A stretch of 64,000 bases of DNA from Zoogloeaceae bacterium. Lineage in GTDB: Bacteria; Pseudomonadota; Gammaproteobacteria; Burkholderiales; Rhodocyclaceae. The notes beneath the pieces are model-generated. The model was not told the origin of the DNA. It worked only from the letters and a program-made list of their open reading frames with translations, and made no database searches. This document shows positions 6,590 to 30,997 of this stretch, in pieces. The position numbers and the translations under genes were made by a program. The stretch lies in NCBI GenBank assembly GCA_031287525.1, contig JAITSU010000002.1, positions 1-64,000 on the forward strand, read 5' to 3'. How positions within the stretch are numbered: the stretch's first letter is position 1; every line of letters starts with the position of its first letter.

Positions 6590-7276
6590 TCACCTGTCCC
6601 CTGACCTCTGATACCGTGTCGGGTCAGGAACCCCTGCGGCGACAAATCCTTCCCTACGCAGGCGGCAGGAGTCGCAGACGCCGCAGGCTTTGCCCTGTTC
6701 GTCGGCTTGGTAACAGGAAACGGTGAGTCCGTAATCGACGCCCAGACCTTGACCCATCTGGATGATTCTGGCTTTGGAGAGGGACATCAGCGGGGTGTGC
6801 AGGGTGAGTTTTGCGCCTTCGACGCCGGCTTTGGTCGCCAGATTCGCCATGACTTCAAAGGCGGCGATGTATTCGGGGCGACAGTCCGGGTAGCCGGAAT
6901 AATCGACGGCGTTGACGCCCACGAAGATGTCGCGGCTGCCCGATACTTCTGCCCACGCCAGCGCCAGCGAGAGCATGATGGTGTTGCGGGCGGGGACGTA
7001 GGTGATGGGGATGCCCGGTTTGACGCCCGCTACCGGCACATCGAGATGAGTGTCGGTAAGGGCGGAGCCGCCGAATTGGGCGAGGTCGAGTTTCAGGATG
7101 CGATGTTCGGTTGCGCCTAGCGCGGCGGCAACCCGTCGGGCGGCGTCGAGTTCGGCGCGGTGGCGCTGACCGTAATCGAATGAGAGGCAATATGCCGAAA
7201 AACCGCAATGTTTCGCTTCGGCAAGGCAGGTGGCGGAATCGAGTCCGCCGGATAGAAGAATGACGGCGTTTGGCAT
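6590..7276 (-). CDS. queC: 7-cyano-7-deazaguanine synthase QueC
   Basis: Converts 7-carboxy-7-deazaguanine to preQ0 with ATP and ammonia in queuosine synthesis. The PP-loop SGGLDS lies at residues 9-14, followed by FDYGQRH. The C-terminal zinc site is C-x8-C-x2-C-x2-C ([17 protein letters not shown]). The length of 228 residues is normal. It is last in the minus-strand run ybgC-tol-pal-queE-PilZ-queC. The 3' end runs into a CTGTCACCTG repeat word found at other gene ends in this window. Confidence 0.95.
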
Positions 7277-7297
7277 CAGGAATCAGGGAGCAAGGGC

Positions 7298-7690
7298 TTA
7301 TTCTCGTGTCAGATTTTCAAGTTCACGAGACAGCAGACTCTCGTCGCCAAGGTTGAGTTCGATGAGTCGGCGCAGTTGGGTGATGCTGTCAAGATCAATT
7401 TCGACGCAGCGAAGACCAATGTCCGAACCTTTCAGGTGCACGACTTCCGCGTTCATGTAGATATTGCTCTCCAGCGTGTCGCTGTTCGGGGCGTTCAGAC
7501 CGACTTCCAGCGCGCAGCGCGCGCCGAGGGCAAGTCCTGCTGCCTGAGCGTCGCGCTTGATGAGCGCGCCTTTCAGGGACAAATCAAGGATTTCGACCTC
7601 GCATTCCCGCTCTTCTTCGCCGACCTGAAAGGCGAGTCGCCCCGGCGTGTCGAAGTGGATGCGCGAAAAACGCCTGCGGTTGGTTTCCAT
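7298..7690 (-). CDS. PilZ-domain c-di-GMP-binding protein
   Basis: A 130-residue single PilZ domain. The RRRFSRI start provides the Arg cluster and DLSLKGALI the D-x-S-x-x-G motif used for c-di-GMP binding. It lies between queE and queC, which are normally adjacent, with short gaps on both sides, so it is probably co-transcribed. Its target is unknown; the chemosensory/pilus operon and the GGDEF-EAL protein in this window make a link to motility possible but unproven. Confidence 0.85.
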   Translation of the reverse strand: METNRRRFSRIHFDTPGRLAFQVGEEERECEVEILDLSLKGALIKRDAQAAGLALGARCALEVGLNAPNSDTLESNIYMNAEVVHLKGSDIGLRCVEIDLDSITQLRRLIELNLGDESLLSRELENLTRE

Positions 7691-7711
7691 GTGGCTTCTC
7701 CGTTGCCGTGT

Positions 7712-8404
7712 TCACTTACCCTGCATGTTACCCCAGAGCAGCTTGTGCAACTGCATCTGGAAGCGCGCGTCAAGCCCGTCGGCAAGTATCCATTCGGCGA
7801 GTTCGGTGGCGTCCTGTCTGCCCTGAACCGGAGAAAGCAGGACGCAAAAGCGCGTGGACAGGGCGTGTTCGCGGATGCGAGCGGTCGCCCAATCGTAATC
7901 GGCGCGGTCGGCGATGACGATTTTGATTTCGTCCTGTCGGGTGAGCAAGGCTAAATTTTCCCAACGATTTTTGTCGACTTCGCCGGAGCCTGGCGTCTTG
8001 AGGTCAAGGATGCGGGCGACGCGGGCATCGACGCCGCCGATGTCAAGCGCGCCGGAGGTTTCCAGCGCGACATCGTAGCCCGCGTCACAGAGCAGGGTGA
8101 GCAGGGTGAGGCAGTTTTTTTGCGCCAGCGGCTCGCCGCCGGTAACGCAGACATGGCGGACGCGGCTTGGTGAAGCGGCGCGTACCTTGTCCAGAATTTC
8201 TGCCAAAGTCAGCGTTTCGCCGCCGGTAAAAGCGTAGCGGGTGTCGCACCATGCACAGCGCAGCGGGCAGCCGGTCAGACGGATGAAGACCGTCGGCAAG
8301 CCGACGCGGGTGGCTTCGCCTTGCAGGGAGAAAAAAATTTCGCTGACGCGCAGGGTACTGGTCAGCGGGTTTGGAAAAATCGCGGCGTCTTGTTGCGCGG
8401 GCAT
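7712..8404 (-). CDS. queE: 7-carboxy-7-deazaguanine synthase QueE
   Basis: Radical-SAM enzyme that ring-contracts 6-carboxytetrahydropterin to 7-carboxy-7-deazaguanine. The cluster motif C-x3-C-x2-C is seen in GCPLRCAWCDTRYAF, and a GGEP-type SAM motif in VCVTGGEPLAQ. The 230-residue length fits the family. The start ATG overlaps the cpoB stop (TAATG), indicating translational coupling with the Tol-Pal operon. Confidence 0.94.
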   Translation of the reverse strand: MPAQQDAAIFPNPLTSTLRVSEIFFSLQGEATRVGLPTVFIRLTGCPLRCAWCDTRYAFTGGETLTLAEILDKVRAASPSRVRHVCVTGGEPLAQKNCLTLLTLLCDAGYDVALETSGALDIGGVDARVARILDLKTPGSGEVDKNRWENLALLTRQDEIKIVIADRADYDWATARIREHALSTRFCVLLSPVQGRQDATELAEWILADGLDARFQMQLHKLLWGNMQGK

Positions 8405-9123
8405 TATTTGAGGCGTTGTTTCGCTTGCGTTGCCGCTTGCGAAGTCGGGTATTTTTCGAGGATGCTGTTCAAGGTGCGGCGAGCGGCGGTGTTATTGCCG
8501 TCGTCGCGCTGGCAGTTGGCGATGGCGAGCAGAGCGTCCGGCGCGCGGGCGGAATCCGGCCAGTGGGTGGTGACGATGAGTTGCGCGTCAATCGCCTGTT
8601 TGCATTTCTGCTGCGCGTACCAGGCATTGCCCAGCCAGAATTGCGCGTTGGGCGCCATGTCGCTGTCGGGATAGTTCTGCACAAAGGCGGCAAACGCCGT
8701 CGCCGCCGCCGGATATTTGCCCGCCTTGAACTGGTTCAAAGCAGCTTCATAAGCATTGCTTTCGGCAGCCGGATCAACGGCGGCCGCCGCGCCATAACCT
8801 GTACTGCCGCGCGAAGATTCCAGCGGAGTCAGGCGGCTGTCCAGATCGAGATAGAGGTCTTGCAGGCGTTTTTTCGCCTGTTCGTTCTCGTAATGCAGGG
8901 TCTCGATTTCGCCGCGCAGACGGGAAATTTCCTCGCGCAAGCCCAGAAGCTGGGTGGAGAGTTCCAGTTGCGCCCTGGTCAGGGTTTCGACGCGGGCGTC
9001 GGTCGCTGCTTGCAGGTCGATAATCTGCTGGCGGGCGATGTCGTCATCGAACAAACCCGCTTGCGCGGCGGGCGCAATTAGCAACGCGCCCGCAGAGAGT
9101 AGAGGCAGAGCGAGGCGTCGCAT
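8404..9123 (-). CDS. cpoB: Cell division coordinator CpoB (YbgF)
   Basis: Periplasmic Tol-Pal partner that couples peptidoglycan synthesis with outer-membrane constriction. It starts MRRLALPLLSAGALLIAPAA, a Sec signal peptide ending AQA. A coiled-coil trimerisation segment occupies about residues 25-95, and C-terminal TPR-like repeats contain AYEAALNQFKAGKYPAAATA and QFWLGNAWYAQ. I chose the ATG at 9123 because the signal peptide starts there; it begins 2 nt after the pal stop. A longer frame to 9174 would overlap pal. Confidence 0.93.
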   Translation of the reverse strand: MRRLALPLLSAGALLIAPAAQAGLFDDDIARQQIIDLQAATDARVETLTRAQLELSTQLLGLREEISRLRGEIETLHYENEQAKKRLQDLYLDLDSRLTPLESSRGSTGYGAAAAVDPAAESNAYEAALNQFKAGKYPAAATAFAAFVQNYPDSDMAPNAQFWLGNAWYAQQKCKQAIDAQLIVTTHWPDSARAPDALLAIANCQRDDGNNTAARRTLNSILEKYPTSQAATQAKQRLK

Positions 9124-9125
9124 GA

Positions 9126-9650
9126 TCAGAACTCGCCGGAATAGAGAATGTCGGCGCGACGGTTTTGCGCCCACGCGCTTTCGTCATGCCCTTCGGCGCG
9201 GGGTTTTTCTTCACCCAGACTGACCGCTTCCACCTGCTCTTCGCGCGCGCCTAACAGCAACAGGATTTGCTTCACGGCTTCGGCGCGTTTTTGCCCCAGC
9301 GAGAGGTTGTATTCGTGGCTGCCGCGTTCATCGGTATTACCTTGAATCAACACCTTGAAATTGCGGTTTTCCACCAGAAATTTGGCGTGCGCGGTGAGCA
9401 GACCGCGATAGTCTTCCGCCACATCGTAGCGGTCGAGCGCGAAATAAATGCTGCGTTGGGCGAGCACGCCGCTGGTGAGGATGGCGGGCAGATTGGCGCC
9501 GTTGGGGTTGGGCACTTCAACGCGCGTGACATCGGCATTGGGATCGCGGGTTTCCACCGGCGCGCCACCGGTTTCCGGGTCGCCGGGGGTGACACAAGCG
9601 GTCAGGGCGAGCAACAGGCTCAAAACGACGAAAGAGGCAAATTTTTTCAT
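9126..9650 (-). CDS. pal: Peptidoglycan-associated lipoprotein Pal
   Basis: Outer-membrane lipoprotein of the Tol-Pal system. The signal peptide ends in the lipobox LTAC with acylated C19. The C-terminal OmpA-like peptidoglycan-binding domain includes IYFALDRYDV and NTDERGSHEYNLSLGQKRA. Its 174 residues match the family. It lies between tolB and cpoB in canonical order. Confidence 0.96.
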   Translation of the reverse strand: MKKFASFVVLSLLLALTACVTPGDPETGGAPVETRDPNADVTRVEVPNPNGANLPAILTSGVLAQRSIYFALDRYDVAEDYRGLLTAHAKFLVENRNFKVLIQGNTDERGSHEYNLSLGQKRAEAVKQILLLLGAREEQVEAVSLGEEKPRAEGHDESAWAQNRRADILYSGEF

Positions 9651-19867: not shown

Positions 19868-22800
19868 ATGAATGCAGCCACGGATTTTGCAGATTTCGAC
19901 ATCGCCCCCCTGACCTGGGTCAAGGGGGAGATTGAGTTAGCCCTGAACCGGGCTGAAGAGGCGTTGCAGCAATTTCAGGCGCAAAAGGAAACGACACAGG
20001 TCAAGTTTGCCCGCACACACTTGCAACAGGTGCATGGCGCTTTGACCATGGTCGGGCTGGACGGCGTGACCCAGGTCATTGACGCGCTGAATCTGCTGCT
20101 CGTCGCGCTGGAGAACAAGTCGGGTGTAGCGGGCAATCCGGATCAGATCATCGCCGTGGTGGAAGAGGGTTTCAGTTCTTTGCGCCAATATCTGGATGAT
20201 TTGCTGGCGGGCGTGCCCAACCAGCCTCTGCGTCTGCTGCCCGTCTATCAAAAAATCTCTGCGGCGTTGGGCAAGCCCGCCAATCCCGTCGAACTGTTTT
20301 TCCCCAATCTCAATCTGCGTCCGCCCAGACGTGTCATCAAGAAACCTTTGGCTCAGGCAGAGCGTCACAAGTTTATTCAGCGCGAACGTACCCATTTTCA
20401 GAAAGGCTTGCTCGCCTGGCTCAAGCAACCGGCAGACAGTCCTGCCAGCCAGACCGGGCTTGAGCAGATGCAAAAAGCCTTGCAGCGTATTGAGGCGATT
20501 CAGTCCTCGTCTGCGGCGCGTTCATTCTGGTTGGCGGCGCTCGGTTTGGTCACGGCGCTGGCGCATGGCGCCAGCAGGGTGGGGGACGCCCGTTCCCTCT
20601 GCGCCCGCATTGACCAGCAAATCCGACGTTTGCAGCAAGGCAACCCCGGTATTGCCGAGCGTCTGCTGCGCGACTGCCTCTATTTTGTCGCCAGAACGCC
20701 GGGAGAAGCCGATCCTTTGCTGGCGGATATTCAATCCACCTATTGCCTGTCCGGGCTGATTCCGTCCGGCGCGCTCGTCAAGGCGGCGACCAACGCGGAA
20801 GAAACCGCGCTGCGCCGTCTGAAAGAAGCGATCACGACAGCGGAAGAACAATGGAACCGTTTCTGCGCCGGTAGCGCGACCTCGCTATCCACCTTTGCCG
20901 AACAGGTACGCAACGCTGCCCGGTTCACGGAAAATCTTGATGCCGACCTGAAATCTTTGGTGGGCATCCTCGCCGCCGCCGCCAGTTGGCTGACGCAAGA
21001 CCCAAGTCGCCAGTCTGACGGGCTGGCGATGGAAATCGCCACCTCGCTGCTGTTGGTTCAGGGCGCGCTGGAAAACTATGCCCGTTTGGGCAGCAGCGAT
21101 TTCAGACAACGCGCGCAGTTGATGATTGCCCGCCTGAAAGCTTGTGTGGCGGGGCGTTCCTTGAGTCATAGCGAAGTGCCGTTGTTAGATGAAATGTCCC
21201 GCCGCGCTCAGGAAAAGATGCTCATGGCGCAAGTCGCGCGGGAAATCCAGAATAATCTGGCGCAAATCGAGCAGGTGTTGGACGCCTATTTCCGCGAACC
21301 GACCAAACGCCCGGATGCTGCCAGCCTGGAAGGTTCGCTGAATCAGGTGGGCGGCGCGTTGTCCATTCTGGGGCAGGACGATGCGGTCACCTGGCTGAAC
21401 GATTGTGAAAAGAAGATTCTCAATTTTACCAAGCCAGACAGTGTTGCCAACGAAGAAGATTTTGAAAGCGTCGCCCAGCAGCTTTCCGCCCTCAGCCTGT
21501 TCATTGATACCCTGCAAAACAGCAAGGCGAATTTCCGCGATTACATGGAGCGTTACTTCCAGTCGCAAACGAAATCCGAGGTGGAAGAGGAAATCGTCGT
21601 AGAAGAAGCGGAAATACCGGAAGAGGAAGAAATTCCTGTCGCCAGCGTCGAAAGCCAGTTGGAGCGTCTGAAAAAAGAAACCCGGCAATTGTTGACGGAA
21701 ATTCAGGCGCATCCAGACGACGCGACTTTACGCGCCAGATTGCTCTCGCATCTGGATGAATTGCAGAAAGACGCCGATCTGGTCGCCGATCAGGAATTGC
21801 AGACCCAGATTAAAGCCGCGCTTGCCGCCCTGAAGAAACAGCAGGACGAAGCGTCGCAAAAATCGCAAATCGAAGCCGTGACAGCGGCTCTGGAGCCCGC
21901 CGCCGCGTCCGCTCCCGCGCCTTCCAGCGAAACCCTGCAACTGGCTCAGGCTGGAGCCGAAGAGCTGGATGCCGAACTGCTCGCCATTTTCCTCGAAGAA
22001 GCGCAGGAAGTGCTGGTCAGCATGAGCGACAATCTCGCCGTGTTGCGCCAACATCCGCACGACACCGAAACCCTGACCACCATCCGGCGCGGCGTGCATA
22101 CCCTGAAGGGCAGCGGTCGCATGGTGGGGCTGAAAGACCTGGGCGAAACCGCTTGGGCAGTGGAACAAACCCTGAATTTCTGGCTGCGTCAGGAAGCCTT
22201 GGCGTCGCCGGATTTGCTGGATTTGGTCAGCCAGACCCATCAGGTGTTCAGCACCTGGGTGAACGCGCTTTCCGCTGGTGAAACGCGGATGCCCGACCCG
22301 ACTGCCCTGATTGCCAAAGCGGAAGCCTTGCGTAGCGAAGAAAGCGCGGCAACGCCCGCGTCGAAAAAAGCCGCTGCCGAAAGCGAACCCGAACCGGAGC
22401 CTGAGCTAGAACCCGTATCCGACGAATTCGCCGTCGAGCCTGAATCCCAACCCGAATCCGAACCGGCGGCAACATCCATCGTCGATGACGACGACGAGAT
22501 TCCCGAAGAATTGCGGACTTCCCGTTTCGACCTCTCCCTGCTGGGCATGGATGAGGATGATCCGATAGAACCCGCGCAACCGGAAGCGCAGGAAGACCTG
22601 CTGCCCGCGCTGGACATGGATTTCGATGTGGACTCGCTGCCGGAAAAAGTTGCGCCGCCGGAAATCGAATCCGAACCGCTGTCCATCACGACCAGTCATG
22701 GCGTGACCATTTCGCCGCAGCTTTACGAGATTTTCCGCGACGAAGCGCGTGGGCATCTTGATACCCTGCAAAACTTCCTCTCCATGCTCGCCGAATCGCC

Positions 22801-25800
22801 CGACATGGAAACGCCTTACGAGGTGGGTCGCGCCGCGCATACGATGGCGGGCATCGCCGGTACGGTGGGCATCATCAGCGTCAACAGGCTCGCGCATGAA
22901 CTCGAATCGACCCTGTTGCGCCGCGATGAATCCGAACATCCCGATTCTCTGGAAGGGCAGGAAATCATCCGTCAAACCGTGGGGATGCTGGAAGACATGC
23001 AGGAAGCCCTGTCGGTAGGGCGTATGCCCGAAGCCCAGCCCGCGCTCATCGACGCGCTCTCGCAACTGTACCCGTCCGCGCAGCATGATGAAGAAGTTGC
23101 GGAAGAAGCGCCCGCCGCTGTCGAAGTCGCCGCTCCGGTCAAGCCCGCTGCCGAAAAAGCAGAAACTGCCGCAACGCCTGCGCCCGAACCTGTCACCGAA
23201 TCTGTTACTGTTGCCGCCAAATCTGCCGCCGAACCCGACGCCGCGCCCGAAACGCCAGAGCCAGAGGCGATCTCGCCCGCGCAGGAAATAGACGATCCCG
23301 ACGCGGAGTTGCTGGAGGTCTTTCTGGAAGAAGCCCAGGATTTGATATCCGGTTTCTACAATGAAGTCGCCGCCTGGCGCAATGATCGGGATGGCGACGA
23401 AGCGCCGAATGCGCTTGCCCGCATCCTGCACACCTTCAAGGGCAGTTCGCGCATGGCGGGCGCGCTGAATCTGGGCAATGCGACGCACAAGCTTGAAGAT
23501 CAGGTGCGCGCGCTGAAAAAACGCGGTCAGGTCAGTGACGACGAACTGGACAACATCGAAGCCGCGCTGGATGTGCTGGCGCAAAGCGTCGAGCGTTACA
23601 GCGTCGGGGATTACCAGATTCCCGTATTGCCGGAATTCGCGCCCGCGTCTGCCGAAACGGTTACATCGGTCGAACCTGCTGCCGAGCCTGTCGCCCAACC
23701 TGTTGTCGAACCCATTGTCGAACCCGTTGCAGACGCGCAAACCGATGACCGGCTGGCGAGCGCCATCAGCGATTTTTCCGCTGAACTGCCTGCCGACAAG
23801 CCGCAGGTCGTCTTGCCATCCGTGCCGCTTCCCCCCGTCGAAATGGTGGATGAATTAACCGTTCCCGACGGCGATGTCAAAGAGGCGCTGCCGCTGTTGC
23901 AGGACGAACTCGACGAACAGTTGTTCCCCATCTTTCTGGAAGAAGCCGAGGAACTGATTGAGGGGATCTCGACCCAGATTGCCGCCTGGCGCGAAGACCG
24001 CACGAATCTTGATGCGCCGCACGCCCTGGCGCGTCTGCTGCACACCTTCAAGGGCAGTTCGCGCATGGCAGGCGCGATGAATCTGGGCGAATTGACGCAC
24101 GCCATCGAAAGCCGCGTGGGTGAACTCGCCAAGAGCGATGAAATCCGCGAGGAAGACCTCGATGAAGTCGCTTCCGCCTGCGACACTGTGGCGCAGACCG
24201 TCGAGCATTACCGCAAGGGCGACCTGACCGCGCCATTGCCAGCCGCTGGCGCGTCCAAAGTAAAAACACCAGAGGTTTCGACACCCGCCGCTACGCCGGT
24301 TGCGCCTGCCGCCGATTCTACCGCTGCCGCCAAATCCGCCGCCCCCGCCCCACATGCGCGGGAAAGCGCCCAGTTGCGTGTGCGCGCCGATCTGGTGGAT
24401 ACACTGGTCAATGAAGCGGGCGAGCTTTCCATTGCGCGCGCCCGGATTGAAGGGGAAATGCGCGAAATCAAGACTTCGCTCCTTTACCTGACTGAAAACG
24501 TCATTCGTCTGCGTCGCCAGTTGCGGGAAATCGAAATTCAGGCAGAAACCCAGATTCAGGCGGATACCGGCAAGGAAGCCAAAGCCGATTTCGACCCGCT
24601 GGAACTTGACCGCTTCACCCGCTTCCAGGAATTGACCCGGATGATGGCGGAATCGGTGAACGACGTTGCCACAGTGCAACAAAACCTGCTGAAAAATCTG
24701 GATGACGCCAACGCCGCCATCATCGCCCAGGCGCGGCTGAATCGCGGGTTGCAACAATCGCTCATGAGCGTGCGGATGGTGCCGTTTGCCAGCCAGAGCG
24801 AACGGCTCTACCGGCTGGTGCGTCAGGCTGCCAAGGAACTCGGCAAACGCGCCACGCTGGACATTCACGGCGGGCAGGTGGAACTCGACCGTTCCGTGTT
24901 GGAAAAAATCCTTTCTCCGCTCGAACACATGCTGCGTAACTCCGTCGCGCATGGTCTGGAAGCGCGTGAGGGGCGTCTCGCCGCAGGCAAGCCGGAAATC
25001 GGTGAAATCAATCTGACGCTGGCGCAGGAAGGCAATGAAATCATCCTCTCCCTGTCCGACGATGGCAGCGGGCTGGACATCAACCGCATCCGCGCCAAGG
25101 CGGAAAGCGCCGGACTGATTACGCCGGAACAGGTGTTGTCGGATCAACAGCTGATCGACTTCATTTTCTCGTCCGGTTTCACCACCGCCGCCAGCGTTTC
25201 CCAGATTGCCGGTCGTGGCGTCGGGATGGACGTGGTGAAAACTGAAGTCACCGCTCTGGGCGGTCGTATCGAAATCCAGACCAAACAGGGTCAGGGTACA
25301 ACCTTCCGCCTCTACCTGCCGCTCACCCTCGCCGTGAGTCAGGTGGTGTTGATTCAAGCCGGCGGCAAACTGCTCGCCGTACCCTCCGCGATGGTCGAAC
25401 AGGTCATGGAGGTGCAGGAACGCATCATCAATGACATGCGCGACAAGGGCGAAGCCATCTGGCAGGGCAAACACTACCCGTTCCATTACCTGCCCCGTCT
25501 GTTGGGCGACGCGCAAAGCCTGACCGAACAGCGCCGCCTGTACTGGGTGATGCTGTTGCGTTCCGGTACGCAGCGGGTGGCAGTGCTGATTGACGAAATG
25601 TTCGGCAATCAGGAAATCGTGGTCAAGAACGTCGGCCCGCAAATGGCGCGCGTGGTCGGCATATCGGGCGCGACGGTGCTGGGCGACGGCAGGGTGGTGC
25701 TGATTCTGAATCCCGTCGCGCTGGCGAATCGTCTGGCGCTCTCCGCCACCGTCGCCGCCGCGCAGGAAGGTTCCGCGACCGCCACAGCGACGATTCCAGC

Positions 25801-26218
25801 GGGAACGCTCTCTCCGGTCGTGCTTGACGATGCGCCCGTTGTGCGTCACCAGCCGATTGTTCTGGTGGTCGACGATTCGCTGACCGTTCGCAAAATTACC
25901 AGCAAGCTGCTGGTGCGCGAAGGTTATCAGGTCGAGCTTGCCAAGGATGGCGTGGATGCGCTGGAACAGTTGATTGAGCTGATGCCCGACGTGATTCTGT
26001 CGGATATCGAAATGCCGCGCATGGACGGCTTCGATTTGGTACGCAACATTCGCTCCGATCACCGCCTGGACAAAGTTCCGGTCATCATGATTACTTCGCG
26101 GACAGCGGACAAACACCGCAATCTGGCGATGGAAATCGGCGCCAATCACTATCTGGGCAAACCGTACAACGAAGCCGAATTGCTGAAACTGCTGGCGGGC
26201 TACACGACGCGCGACTGA
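19868..26218 (+). CDS. chpA: Hybrid CheA-type histidine kinase ChpA/PilL
   Basis: Central kinase of the pilus chemosensory system, 2116 residues. Four canonical Hpt motifs carry the phosphorylatable His: H744 (HTLKGSGRMVG), H991 (HTMAGIAGTVG), H1188 and H1392 (both HTFKGSSRMAG). Two more Hpt-like regions lie upstream: VHGALTMVGLDG near residue 57, and QVGGALSILGQ near 495, which lacks His. Acidic Pro/Glu/Ala linkers separate the units. The kinase core follows: dimerisation (VNEAGELSIARARIE), N box near 1690 (HMLRNSVAHG), G boxes DDGSGLD and GRGVGMDVVK, a CheW-like domain, and a C-terminal REC with D2046 (SDIEMPRMDG). It ends the pilGHIJ operon. Confidence 0.95.
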   Translation: MNAATDFADFDIAPLTWVKGEIELALNRAEEALQQFQAQKETTQVKFARTHLQQVHGALTMVGLDGVTQVIDALNLLLVALENKSGVAGNPDQIIAVVEEGFSSLRQYLDDLLAGVPNQPLRLLPVYQKISAALGKPANPVELFFPNLNLRPPRRVIKKPLAQAERHKFIQRERTHFQKGLLAWLKQPADSPASQTGLEQMQKALQRIEAIQSSSAARSFWLAALGLVTALAHGASRVGDARSLCARIDQQIRRLQQGNPGIAERLLRDCLYFVARTPGEADPLLADIQSTYCLSGLIPSGALVKAATNAEETALRRLKEAITTAEEQWNRFCAGSATSLSTFAEQVRNAARFTENLDADLKSLVGILAAAASWLTQDPSRQSDGLAMEIATSLLLVQGALENYARLGSSDFRQRAQLMIARLKACVAGRSLSHSEVPLLDEMSRRAQEKMLMAQVAREIQNNLAQIEQVLDAYFREPTKRPDAASLEGSLNQVGGALSILGQDDAVTWLNDCEKKILNFTKPDSVANEEDFESVAQQLSALSLFIDTLQNSKANFRDYMERYFQSQTKSEVEEEIVVEEAEIPEEEEIPVASVESQLERLKKETRQLLTEIQAHPDDATLRARLLSHLDELQKDADLVADQELQTQIKAALAALKKQQDEASQKSQIEAVTAALEPAAASAPAPSSETLQLAQAGAEELDAELLAIFLEEAQEVLVSMSDNLAVLRQHPHDTETLTTIRRGVHTLKGSGRMVGLKDLGETAWAVEQTLNFWLRQEALASPDLLDLVSQTHQVFSTWVNALSAGETRMPDPTALIAKAEALRSEESAATPASKKAAAESEPEPEPELEPVSDEFAVEPESQPESEPAATSIVDDDDEIPEELRTSRFDLSLLGMDEDDPIEPAQPEAQEDLLPALDMDFDVDSLPEKVAPPEIESEPLSITTSHGVTISPQLYEIFRDEARGHLDTLQNFLSMLAESPDMETPYEVGRAAHTMAGIAGTVGIISVNRLAHELESTLLRRDESEHPDSLEGQEIIRQTVGMLEDMQEALSVGRMPEAQPALIDALSQLYPSAQHDEEVAEEAPAAVEVAAPVKPAAEKAETAATPAPEPVTESVTVAAKSAAEPDAAPETPEPEAISPAQEIDDPDAELLEVFLEEAQDLISGFYNEVAAWRNDRDGDEAPNALARILHTFKGSSRMAGALNLGNATHKLEDQVRALKKRGQVSDDELDNIEAALDVLAQSVERYSVGDYQIPVLPEFAPASAETVTSVEPAAEPVAQPVVEPIVEPVADAQTDDRLASAISDFSAELPADKPQVVLPSVPLPPVEMVDELTVPDGDVKEALPLLQDELDEQLFPIFLEEAEELIEGISTQIAAWREDRTNLDAPHALARLLHTFKGSSRMAGAMNLGELTHAIESRVGELAKSDEIREEDLDEVASACDTVAQTVEHYRKGDLTAPLPAAGASKVKTPEVSTPAATPVAPAADSTAAAKSAAPAPHARESAQLRVRADLVDTLVNEAGELSIARARIEGEMREIKTSLLYLTENVIRLRRQLREIEIQAETQIQADTGKEAKADFDPLELDRFTRFQELTRMMAESVNDVATVQQNLLKNLDDANAAIIAQARLNRGLQQSLMSVRMVPFASQSERLYRLVRQAAKELGKRATLDIHGGQVELDRSVLEKILSPLEHMLRNSVAHGLEAREGRLAAGKPEIGEINLTLAQEGNEIILSLSDDGSGLDINRIRAKAESAGLITPEQVLSDQQLIDFIFSSGFTTAASVSQIAGRGVGMDVVKTEVTALGGRIEIQTKQGQGTTFRLYLPLTLAVSQVVLIQAGGKLLAVPSAMVEQVMEVQERIINDMRDKGEAIWQGKHYPFHYLPRLLGDAQSLTEQRRLYWVMLLRSGTQRVAVLIDEMFGNQEIVVKNVGPQMARVVGISGATVLGDGRVVLILNPVALANRLALSATVAAAQEGSATATATIPAGTLSPVVLDDAPVVRHQPIVLVVDDSLTVRKITSKLLVREGYQVELAKDGVDALEQLIELMPDVILSDIEMPRMDGFDLVRNIRSDHRLDKVPVIMITSRTADKHRNLAMEIGANHYLGKPYNEAELLKLLAGYTTRD

Positions 26219-28152: not shown

Positions 28153-28240
28153 TGCGCGAAAATCTGGAGCGGGCGATGGGAATCGAACCCACGGCTCTAG
28201 GCGGGTAAGGGGATGACCTCGCGGTCACCCCCTCCCCTAA

Positions 28241-28274
28241 GAACCGTACATGCAAGTTTCCCTGCATACGGCTC
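28241..28274 (-). other. Group II intron domain V
   Basis: A 34-nt hairpin on the minus strand with GAGCCGTATGC / GCATGTACGGTTC arms, an apical GGGAAAC-type loop and the two-nt bulge in the 3' strand. This is the hallmark catalytic element. It lies 19 nt after the maturase stop. Confidence 0.93.
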
Positions 28275-28293
28275 AAGCAACTCATAAGCACCT

Positions 28294-29961
28294 CTACTTG
28301 TACATCGAGATGCCGGCAGCGTCGAATGTCTCCAGGACGTGATGTTGCATATGACAATTCGGATGCAGCAGAACCAGATTGGTCAGCTTGTCCGAGCCTC
28401 GTTGTGATCGCTTGACGATGTGATGAAGATTCCATCCCGTATCTCGCGTGATTTTCTGGTTGTAGACAGGACATATCCCTTCTTGCAACCACCACAAATA
28501 CCGAAGCTTGTATCGCCCTTCGAGCGTCTTGTCCATGCGCCGTGCAAGCCGCTTGGAGAAATACTCGTCGAACTTCGGATCGTATGGATTCGCGTCCGCC
28601 ACTATCTTGGTATGGGGGCGTTTTAAGTACCCCGCCAAGACAGGTAGCAACTTGTCCTGATCCGCAAATTGCCAGTCACGTCCCTTGATGCTTTTGAAGT
28701 AGCGTCGTTTGATCCATCGTTTCCCCTTGTTCGGGTGGCGACGGGACGCCCAACGCCACAAAGCTTGCCAGATTTGGTGGTCGCATCTCGCAAATGTATG
28801 GGATGCCATTTGACTTCGGTGATAATTAGCCCATCCTCTGATGACAGGGGTTAGCTTTTCGATCACGTCAATCTGTCTGGCAGCCTTTCTCTCGCGCAGT
28901 AGTTCGCGGATTTTCCCCAAGAATGCTTTGACATTTTTCTTCGATGGCTGAGTAACCAGCATTCGATGGTCATGCCTGACATTCCACCCCAAAAAGTCGA
29001 ATCCTTCCGTCACATGCGTGATTTTGGTTTTCTTCTCCGCGAGGGTGAGTCCCCGTGTGGCAAGGAATTTCTCCACCAAGGGTTTGACCTTATCTGCCAG
29101 AAACTCCTGCGAGCTTCCGGTAATGATAAAGTCATCCGCGTACCGTACCAGATTGACTTTTGCCGCACGCGCTTCCCGCACCGTTCGGAACAACGTGGTT
29201 AGTTCGTGTTGCAGTCCATCCAGTGTCAGGTTCGCCAAAACAGGGGAAATGATACCTCCCTGCGGCGTACCTGCTTGCGTTGGGAAAAGCTTTCCCGTTT
29301 CGATAAAGCCTGCTTTCAACCACTTCCGAAGGATGCCTTTGTCCATGCAGACATTGGCAACCAGCCAGTCATGACTGATGTTGTCGAAACAACCTTTGAT
29401 GTCTCCTTCCAGCACCCATTTTGGCGATGCTTTCCGACCTAGCACGTTTCGCACTTGTTCGATCGCATCTGCCGTCGAGCGCTCACGTCTGAAACCGTAG
29501 GAATGAGGATCTGCTGTTGTTTCGGAGACAGGCTCCAGCGCCAGTAAATGCAGCGCTTGCATCGCTCGATCACGCATGGTGGGTATGCCCAGAGGACGTT
29601 TGTCACCATTTGCTTTCGGGATATAGATGCGACGTAATGGTAACGGTCTGTATTTCTTGTTGCCAAGATCAACTACCGCCTTCCATTTGTCATCCGGCGT
29701 ACCCCAGGTTTGTCCATCTACACCAGGAGTTTTCCGACCTTGATTCTCCGTGACCTTCCGTACTGCCAGCGTTTTCGCGCTGCTGGATTTGATCAGGAGT
29801 TTTTGCAGGGCGCGAACCTTACGCCATTCCCCTGCTTTTGCTGCCTTCGCTATACGTGTCTGTAGCCTCGCAATAACTTGATAAGCCTTGACCCAATAAA
29901 TCTCGTGCCAAGACTGCCAAGTCGTAGAGGCGACATCGCAATCGGACTGCATTGCGTCCAT
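28294..29961 (-). CDS. ltrA: Group II intron reverse transcriptase/maturase with HNH domain
   Basis: Intron-encoded protein of 555 residues. RT blocks are recognisable: LPLRRIYIPKANGDKRPLGIPT, SYGFRRERSTADAI, EGDIKGCFDNISH, GTPQGGIISPVLANLTL and the catalytic YADD at 274-277. A maturase X domain follows (LTPVIRGWANYHR). A C-terminal HNH endonuclease-type region (about 495-545) has NLHHIVKRSQRGSDKLTNLVLLHPNCH. Its first zinc knuckle reads CPVYNQ instead of the usual CPVC, so one Cys is missing. GGAGGT precedes the ATG by 6 nt, and the intact tRNA-Gly ends only 18 nt before it. The full-length frame suggests an active or recently active intron. Confidence 0.94.
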   Translation of the reverse strand: MDAMQSDCDVASTTWQSWHEIYWVKAYQVIARLQTRIAKAAKAGEWRKVRALQKLLIKSSSAKTLAVRKVTENQGRKTPGVDGQTWGTPDDKWKAVVDLGNKKYRPLPLRRIYIPKANGDKRPLGIPTMRDRAMQALHLLALEPVSETTADPHSYGFRRERSTADAIEQVRNVLGRKASPKWVLEGDIKGCFDNISHDWLVANVCMDKGILRKWLKAGFIETGKLFPTQAGTPQGGIISPVLANLTLDGLQHELTTLFRTVREARAAKVNLVRYADDFIITGSSQEFLADKVKPLVEKFLATRGLTLAEKKTKITHVTEGFDFLGWNVRHDHRMLVTQPSKKNVKAFLGKIRELLRERKAARQIDVIEKLTPVIRGWANYHRSQMASHTFARCDHQIWQALWRWASRRHPNKGKRWIKRRYFKSIKGRDWQFADQDKLLPVLAGYLKRPHTKIVADANPYDPKFDEYFSKRLARRMDKTLEGRYKLRYLWWLQEGICPVYNQKITRDTGWNLHHIVKRSQRGSDKLTNLVLLHPNCHMQHHVLETFDAAGISMYK

Positions 29962-29979
29962 ATCAACCTCCGGTTGTTA

Positions 29980-30054
29980 TGGAGCGGGTGAAGGGAGTCG
30001 AACCCTCGTCTCTTGCTTGGGAAGCAAGGGTAATAGCCGTTATACGACACCCGC
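29980..30054 (-). tRNA. tRNA-Gly(CCC), intact, inside the group II intron
   Basis: A complete 75-nt tRNA gene with encoded CCA: acceptor GCGGGTG/CACCCGC, anticodon stem CTTGC/GCAAG, loop TTCCCAA (anticodon CCC), and T arm GAGGG/CCCTT-type with TTCGACT. It resembles the split tRNA-Gly but is not identical, differing in the acceptor, D arm, anticodon stem and variable region. It lies within the intron, just before the maturase SD. TAGAAT followed by a GC-rich stretch is 42 nt upstream, so it probably has its own promoter. Confidence 0.95.
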
Positions 30055-30095
30055 TCTGAACCTTCGGAGGAAGACGCAATTATCCCCGGGCGGGG

Positions 30096-30101
30096 ATTCT
30101 A
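30096..30101 (-). promoter_or_regulatory. Probable -10 box for the intron-borne tRNA-Gly
   Basis: TAGAAT followed by CCCCGCCC is the arrangement usual for stable-RNA promoters with a GC-rich discriminator. It would give a 5' leader of about 35 nt. No good -35 is visible. Confidence 0.4.
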
Positions 30102-30997
30102 ACATCAACCCCCTCGGGTTTGCGATTAAACAGACCCTTCTTACGAAGAGTCACCAGATGGAAGTCTGCACGCTTTCGCGTCGGGGCGATCGTTTCATCC
30201 CCTATCCTCTCCATTACAGAGCGGCATTCGCTTTTTCCATCCTCCTCTACCTGCACAGGGACAACGACCCTTGCGAGGCGTCTTGTTCTGAAACACGTCT
30301 GCAATAGCGCCCCAATCAGTCGCAAAACTGACCGGAGTGTTATGGATTGCTTTCTGTTGTTAAAGAACGCCCATACAGGCTTACCGCGTTCCGTACAAGT
30401 AACGGAGTTGGGAAGGTCTCGCCTTTTCACCGGTGATACAAATGTCAGCGTATCCACACCAAGCAGGTGGACAACCGATCACATGCCTTTTGGCAAAGCC
30501 CGGTACTGCAAGTTGCTTTTGGCTTATCAAGCTTAACGGTGTTTAACAGCGATTCACTTACGTTGACCATCCAACCCAGCCTAGCGCCTCATCCGGATGC
30601 AACTTCCGAAATCACGCCAAGCCCCTCGCGGAGTATGGCGTACCCCTAAAGGTGGCTACATTGTCAGAGCGCTTAGTACCCCACCGTTGCCAGTGACGCA
30701 CTGCTCCTAGGCTACGAGGTGCTGAAACCCCGGTTCAACCTATTTTCCTACTACTGGACAGCAATGAGAAAATGCCATCCGAAAATAGCAGAACAATTAC
30801 TTGTACAGCTTTCGCCGTCAAGGTTACCCACTTGGAAAAGTGGATGAGAGCAGGTTTTCGCAGAATGAAGCGTCTGACAAGTAACCAGTAACCTTTGCGA
30901 CTCGCGTCGCACGCTTGGGAAGCTAGGGTATTACCATTATACGACGCCCGCATTGATCATCGTTCGGTCACATTCAGGGTGCGCGGAACGAGGCGCG

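Follow-up and report, generated by a model that had tools for sequence, protein, structure and literature searches.

Introduction

That a group II intron can occupy a bacterial tRNA gene is already known from TeI4h of Thermosynechococcus elongatus, which lies in a putatively essential single-copy tRNA-Ile(CAU) gene and is thought to splice to give a functional tRNA (PMC2882425). Another established location for such introns is the groEL stop codon in Azotobacter and other gammaproteobacteria (PMC4465626). The window considered here is a stretch of 64,000 nt from a Zoogloeaceae bacterium (assembly GCA_031287525.1, contig JAITSU010000002.1, positions 1 to 64,000), and within it a group II intron splits the gene for tRNA-Gly(CCC). 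Like TeI4h it sits in a tRNA gene and probably splices to restore the tRNA, but the tRNA is a different one, and the window intron carries a second, complete tRNA-Gly(CCC) of its own (the inner or cargo tRNA), whereas no tRNA cargo is described for TeI4h (PMC2882425). It is this proposed rescue-tRNA cargo that appears to be new. In the passages searched, neither a review on how group II introns evolved nor a large survey of prokaryotic introns mentions tRNA cargo (PMC4424553, PMC8919778), and a literature search, outside of which Michel et al. 2007 falls, gave no report of a bacterial intron with one.

Our favoured reading, to which we give about three chances in four, is that the intron is a site-specific IIB-type retroelement which has the single-copy tRNA-Gly(CCC) gene as its homing site and bears, beside its maturase open reading frame (ORF), a rescue tRNA that functions, and so is a natural home-and-rescue element. 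Held with a little less assurance, though still thought probable, is the fuller evolutionary version of this: a naturally evolved selfish element in which an intron lineage confined to one tRNA gene keeps re-evolving a recoded and self-immune rescue tRNA, in some cases on a tRNA-Gly(UCC) backbone, and on which hosts may become dependent. As far as sequence comparison goes, there is one lineage with one target site, a cargo in every informative member which is depleted in the target, and one genome in which the cargo has outlived the intron.

An intron family at one site and its cargo

A scan of a genome collection gave 80 relatives of the window intron. With the window intron added, these fall into a tRNA lineage (n = 51; L003-L051, L067 and the window) and a set of sister introns (n = 30; L052-L082 except L067), separated by one branch of the maturase tree (Shimodaira-Hasegawa-like approximate likelihood ratio test 98), and most of the sister introns are located after ...ATGATGTA of groEL, at the stop-codon site. 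The tRNA lineage spans independent assemblies and many genera, Duganella alba and Piscinibacter being among the cultured carriers, and every member with a readable exon interrupts tRNA-Gly(CCC) at the same position, in the window between tRNA positions 40 and 41 of the anticodon stem, which is the site-specific insertion in one host gene that home-and-rescue calls for. Both exons are available in 42 members and rebuild a tRNA-Gly(CCC) in all 42. A genome from the same genus (G453) has the gene uninterrupted, and its sequence is identical to that of the joined window exons; this genome was considered as a syntenic empty site and rejected, the identical tRNA having other neighbours there.

An intact inner tRNA-Gly(CCC) is present in 45 of the 51 members, at the same place in the intron, and its anticodon is CCC in 45 of 45. 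The remaining six are two introns that end at a contig edge (L037, L047), one with Ns (L013) and three with an element in the inner tRNA (L028, L036, L050). Cargo loss was rejected for these three, as the elements are inserted in the inner tRNA and its 5' part lies beyond them. Counting them, the cargo was originally there in 48 of 48 informative members, and so a complete copy of the disrupted product is carried throughout; no case of its loss by deletion was seen among the 48. The sequence-only reading had asked whether related introns bring a tRNA-Gly and where it sits, and the answer is that all informative ones do and in the same place. Its refuting case, the same intron without the tRNA together with tandem tRNA-Gly genes at the site, was not found among the relatives. 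No inner tRNA occurs in the 30 sister introns, and two additional introns identified via their 5' junction (L248, L250) likewise contain one. Chance, an assembly artefact and a local duplication are rejected because the same arrangement recurs in 51 introns from independent assemblies and many genera.

The intron is uncommon: among 369 genomes of the class 3 have the exact 5' junction, and among 101 of the taxonomic family at least 4 have the maturase, a lower bound since only genomes with a non-standard tRNA were checked. A presence scattered among many genera at one site is consistent with mobility. From plasmids and phages, the best among the matches listed were below 60% identity and came from other lineages. 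One member, L023 of Massilia sp. Bi118 (6666-9140), has about 2.4 kb extra between the maturase ORF and domain V, so making an intron of 4,998 nt.

Decayed and invaded copies

Some members amount to natural experiments. A relic in genome G421 (L196 / L218, G421:C131:16070-16143) has a degraded 5' exon, a deleted ribozyme core and a maturase that has lost its start, yet its inner tRNA-Gly(CCC), still perfect, is the sole CCC tRNA detected in the assembly (96% complete, 200 contigs). Neither a family maturase nor the 3' exon was found in G421, although with 200 contigs their absence is not proof. In Solimonas fluminis (L050; L252, G491:C30:302105 and 211015) the inner tRNA has served as an integration site: at 303.0-302.1 kb are the 5' exon and a rebuilt inner tRNA, with an integrase gene (Arm-DNA-bind_3) after them, and the maturase and 3' exon are near 213-211 kb. 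The halves of the split tRNA are therefore some 92 kb apart, which leaves the intact inner copy as the one CCC tRNA seen that is ready for use. L036 / L253 (G493:C29:541 and C3:27861) looks alike, over two contigs. In Thauera propionica (L028 / L251, G492:C23:618138-641740) the inner tRNA is broken by an inserted element some 21 kb long, and just inside the inserted stretch there is a complete tRNA-Gly(CCC) without an encoded CCA, so the insertion seems to bring a rescue copy of its own. Taken together, G421, L050 and L036 suggest that the intron carries a working tRNA gene. The sequence-only reading had proposed an addiction or harm-reduction cargo, and harm reduction is the best-supported reading of the 48 of 48 carriage, the invariant CCC anticodon and the intact copy in the decayed relative.

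The placement of the inner tRNA allows for another role, in which it serves the intron, either as a punctuation signal that frees the maturase message or as a binding structure for the maturase that stands in for the control element usual in domain IV. In nearly all members the inner tRNA ends 14-18 nt ahead of the maturase start, its CCA being followed by GGAGG, and this near-constant spacing is kept although the tRNA sequence varies, as an intron-serving role would have it. However a processing signal has no need of a glycine-like sequence or of CCC in every intact copy, the tRNA is perfect in G421 where no family maturase was seen, and no bias away from the target (see below) would be predicted. 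We think such a role alone unlikely, and it may be that the inner tRNA does both.

The inner tRNA avoids the sequence the intron reads

The pairing between exon-binding site (EBS) 1 and intron-binding site (IBS) 1 is GCTTGG:CCAAGC in the tRNA lineage versus TACATC:GATGTA in the groEL lineage, and EBS2 changes in step between the two. This covariation fixes the exon bases that are read by the intron, and so the target was defined as CCAAGC followed by T, that is IBS1 and the +1 base. For comparison 79 intact tRNA-Gly(CCC) genes were taken from genomes of the taxonomic family in which the intron was not seen. The target is present in 39 of 42 exonic and 74 of 79 natural tRNAs, and in 4 of 45 inner ones; by distinct sequence the figures are 22/24, 26/31 and 3/26 (Fisher 3e-8 for inner versus natural), and across family and order 56 of 67 distinct natural genes have it. 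Put the other way, 41 of 45 inner tRNAs are without the target versus 5 of 79 natural genes, an alteration away from the target as would be expected of a rescue copy.

The differences concentrate where the intron reads. At pair 29:41 the inner tRNA differs from its own exon in 87% of loci, versus 30% between natural genes, and at pair 31:39 in 13% versus 0%; G31:C39, which breaks IBS1 in six inner copies, is found in none of the 67 distinct natural genes. The other stem positions mostly show no more difference between inner tRNA and exon than there is between two natural genes, a further excess being at the UCC-type D-stem pair. Inner stems are paired in 98% of cells, with both sides changed at 7 pairs, and because the two bases of a pair change together they stay intact. 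At least 23 changes in the inner anticodon stem are needed on the maturase tree, and only 4 in its target state. Drawing at most 4 target states in 24 draws from the natural pool has P of about 1e-12, a figure that assumes independent events and is a guide only. On these comparisons the inner tRNA is recoded, mainly at 29:41 and 31:39.

What selected for divergence of a rescue cargo could also have been, in place of re-insertion, its loss by homologous recombination or its use as a decoy 5' splice site. That no locus was found with identical inner and exonic tRNAs would fit, but avoidance of recombination should act anywhere along the tRNA, and instead the excess is at 29:41, 31:39 and the one D-stem pair, while most stem positions differ less between inner tRNA and exon than between two random natural genes. 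A decoy splice site would involve the same bases as re-insertion and is here indistinguishable from it. Taken as a substitute for selection against re-insertion, this explanation seems quite improbable.

Origin and turnover of the cargo

Maturases of the tRNA lineage range down to about 59% identity with that of the window, and because the clade has diverged so far acquisition of the cargo would be early, most simply once and at the base of the lineage. Since then the cargo has, by all appearances, been altered or replaced many times, and the tRNA carried is not duplicated from the split gene. Nearer to the UCC than to the CCC pool are 23 of 45 inner copies, versus 1 of 67 natural CCC genes. 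Two (L010, L027) are a natural tRNA-Gly(UCC) outside the anticodon loop, with L006 one base off, and the inner tRNA of L038 is a natural CCC gene; those of L016, L017, L023, L024 and L048 look to have a CCC anticodon set in a UCC backbone, along with a swap to G:C at 29:41. The captured spare copy of the sequence-only reading thus survives in part: a spare CCC tRNA is carried, but it is not a copy of the gene interrupted, has sometimes a UCC backbone, and avoids the target.

That the inner tRNA is a functionless cargo, acquired once and kept intact solely through repeated gene conversion with host tRNA genes, is very improbable, for while L038, L010 and L027 do resemble host tRNA-Gly genes, a natural pool that is mostly of target type predicts mostly target copies and 41 of 45 are non-target, G31:C39 is in no natural gene sampled, the UCC-backbone copies all have a CCC anticodon, and the cargo is deleted in no informative member.

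Two genomes that have no family maturase, G249 (L197) and G408 (L199), have a gene of the TCTGC type standing alone, and their own tRNA-Gly(CCC) has T29:A41, the common cargo type. These non-target genes were considered as relics of a rescue tRNA and rejected, since they look like ordinary standalone genes; it is possible that such genomes are donors of cargo or naturally resistant hosts. Separately, L017 and L048 differ from most hosts in that their split tRNA too has the CCC anticodon on a tRNA-Gly(UCC) backbone.

Proposed mechanism and points against it

For the home-and-rescue reading, a single transcript from the promoter of the split tRNA would on splicing yield the exonic tRNA. Insertion with imperfect splicing would reduce the supply of tRNA-Gly(CCC), and RNase P together with 3'-end processing may free the inner tRNA from unspliced or excised intron RNA and so maintain that supply. 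The inner tRNA lies between ribozyme core and maturase ORF, a region of group II introns in which inserts are tolerated, and cutting it out would leave a maturase message beginning just before the Shine-Dalgarno site. Recoding of 29:41 or 31:39 would then prevent insertion of the intron into its own rescue copy, or use of that copy as a decoy 5' splice site.

Several points weigh against home-and-rescue. The window genome encodes a tRNA-Gly(UCC), which may read GGG by wobble, and so loss of the CCC tRNA is not necessarily lethal. The exons look intact in most members, and splicing may already be efficient with rescue little needed. Excision of the inner tRNA would break the intron RNA and so cost mobility. 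The target is kept in the inner copies of L006, L010, L027 and L038, in L248 and in the broken Thauera copy. The exonic sites of L011, L046 and L067 have A at +1, so T at this position is not absolute, and the EBS3 position is not secure, the search for it having given a single candidate column which these same three do not fit. Covariation of the exons was set aside as proof of splicing, since it mainly reflects natural variation among host genes.

The window locus

The intron is single copy in the window genome, and a search of that genome for tRNAs gave no further CCC tRNA beyond the split and inner copies. The sequence-only reading holds for the parts of the locus (Table 1): ARAGORN calls the joined exons as a 74-nt tRNA-Gly(CCC), Rfam and Pfam matches bear out a group II intron with a GTGCGAC end, domains V and VI and a maturase ORF, and ahead of that ORF (by 18 nt) is an intact tRNA-Gly(CCC) unlike the split one in sequence, at 59.1 bits. 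A ribozyme core with domains V and VI, a protein with reverse transcriptase (RT), GIIM and endonuclease domains, and EBS-IBS pairing with the 5' exon all mark the element as a group II intron. Its maturase has as best solved relative the maturase reverse transcriptase 6me0 (610 bits), which we take to be the TeI4h protein. A twintron was rejected, there being one D1-D4 and one D5/D6 match only and the nested feature being a complete tRNA. A tRNA-restoring integrative element was likewise rejected, since the exons remain split with a separate tRNA carried, and the sole protein encoded by the element is a group II RT and not a tyrosine recombinase.

Table 1. Parts of the split tRNA-Gly(CCC) locus, in positions of the window.
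Feature	Position	Strand	Details
5' exon of split tRNA-Gly(CCC)	30913..30951	(-)	39 nt
3' exon of split tRNA-Gly(CCC)	28165..28199	(-)	35 nt; begins with T28199, at +1 (IBS3) and tRNA position 41
Group II intron	28200..30912	(-)	2,713 nt; 5' end GTGCGAC
Ribozyme core, Rfam group-II-D1D4-7 (RF02012)	30585..30733	(-)	103.9 bits
Domains V/VI, Rfam Intron_gpII (RF00029)	28200..28276	(-)	65.4 bits
Likely branch A, domain VI	28206	(-)	7th base from intron 3' end, by eye
Maturase / reverse transcriptase ORF	28294..29961	(-)	555 aa; Pfam RVT_N, RVT_1, GIIM, HNH
Inner (cargo) tRNA-Gly(CCC)	29980..30054	(-)	75 nt, 59.1 bits; anticodon stem CTTGC/GCAAG (T29:A41, non-target)
Shine-Dalgarno GGAGG	29967..29971	(-)	between inner tRNA CCA end and maturase ATG; kept across the intron family
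EBS1 GCTTGG	30459..30464	(-)	pairs with IBS1; identical in family members displayed; covaries with groEL sister lineage
IBS1 CCAAGC	30913..30918	(-)	end of 5' exon
Putative EBS2 AAGCT	30530..30534	(-)	pairs with IBS2 AGCTT
Putative IBS2 AGCTT	30920..30924	(-)	A30924 is tRNA position 29
Candidate EBS3, tentative	30425	(-)	A in all T+1 family introns; T in 92% of groEL lineage

Elsewhere in the window (19868-26218) is an ordinary neighbour, a 2,116-aa ORF that by eye is like a hybrid chemosensory kinase (CheA/ChpA-like).

Comparison with known systems

By the features tested the family are group II introns, and they appear to work like a home-and-rescue element. Among described introns, those of the groEL stop codon (PMC4465626) are sister by the maturase tree and have the same intron ends and pairing logic, but they differ in their site, in EBS1 and EBS2, and in having no tRNA.

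Islands that use a tyrosine recombinase to integrate at tRNA 3' ends likewise insert in a tRNA gene and bring tRNA sequence that limits the damage. An island of this kind restores the gene it enters by means of a copied end, whereas the intron brings a whole separate tRNA of its own sequence. Such islands have themselves landed in the inner tRNA of the intron (L050, L036).

If the home-and-rescue reading is true, this would be to our knowledge the first natural homing element with a working copy of the gene it breaks, altered to escape its own targeting. It would show how a haploid bacterium can come to host a retroelement in an important non-coding gene, and would make directly testable both the cost of a group II intron to its host gene and the evolved immunity of a mobile-element cargo; G421 would further give a route by which the sole tRNA gene for an anticodon comes from a former parasite.

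There is a likeness in design with the engineered home-and-rescue and cleave-and-rescue drives (PMC7968924, PMC7951863), which likewise disrupt an important gene and carry an altered, non-target working copy of it. Those are Cas9 systems in insects, whereas the window family would be a natural retrohoming intron of bacteria, one probably able also to splice from the target RNA, and if so the same design has been reached independently by gene-drive engineers.
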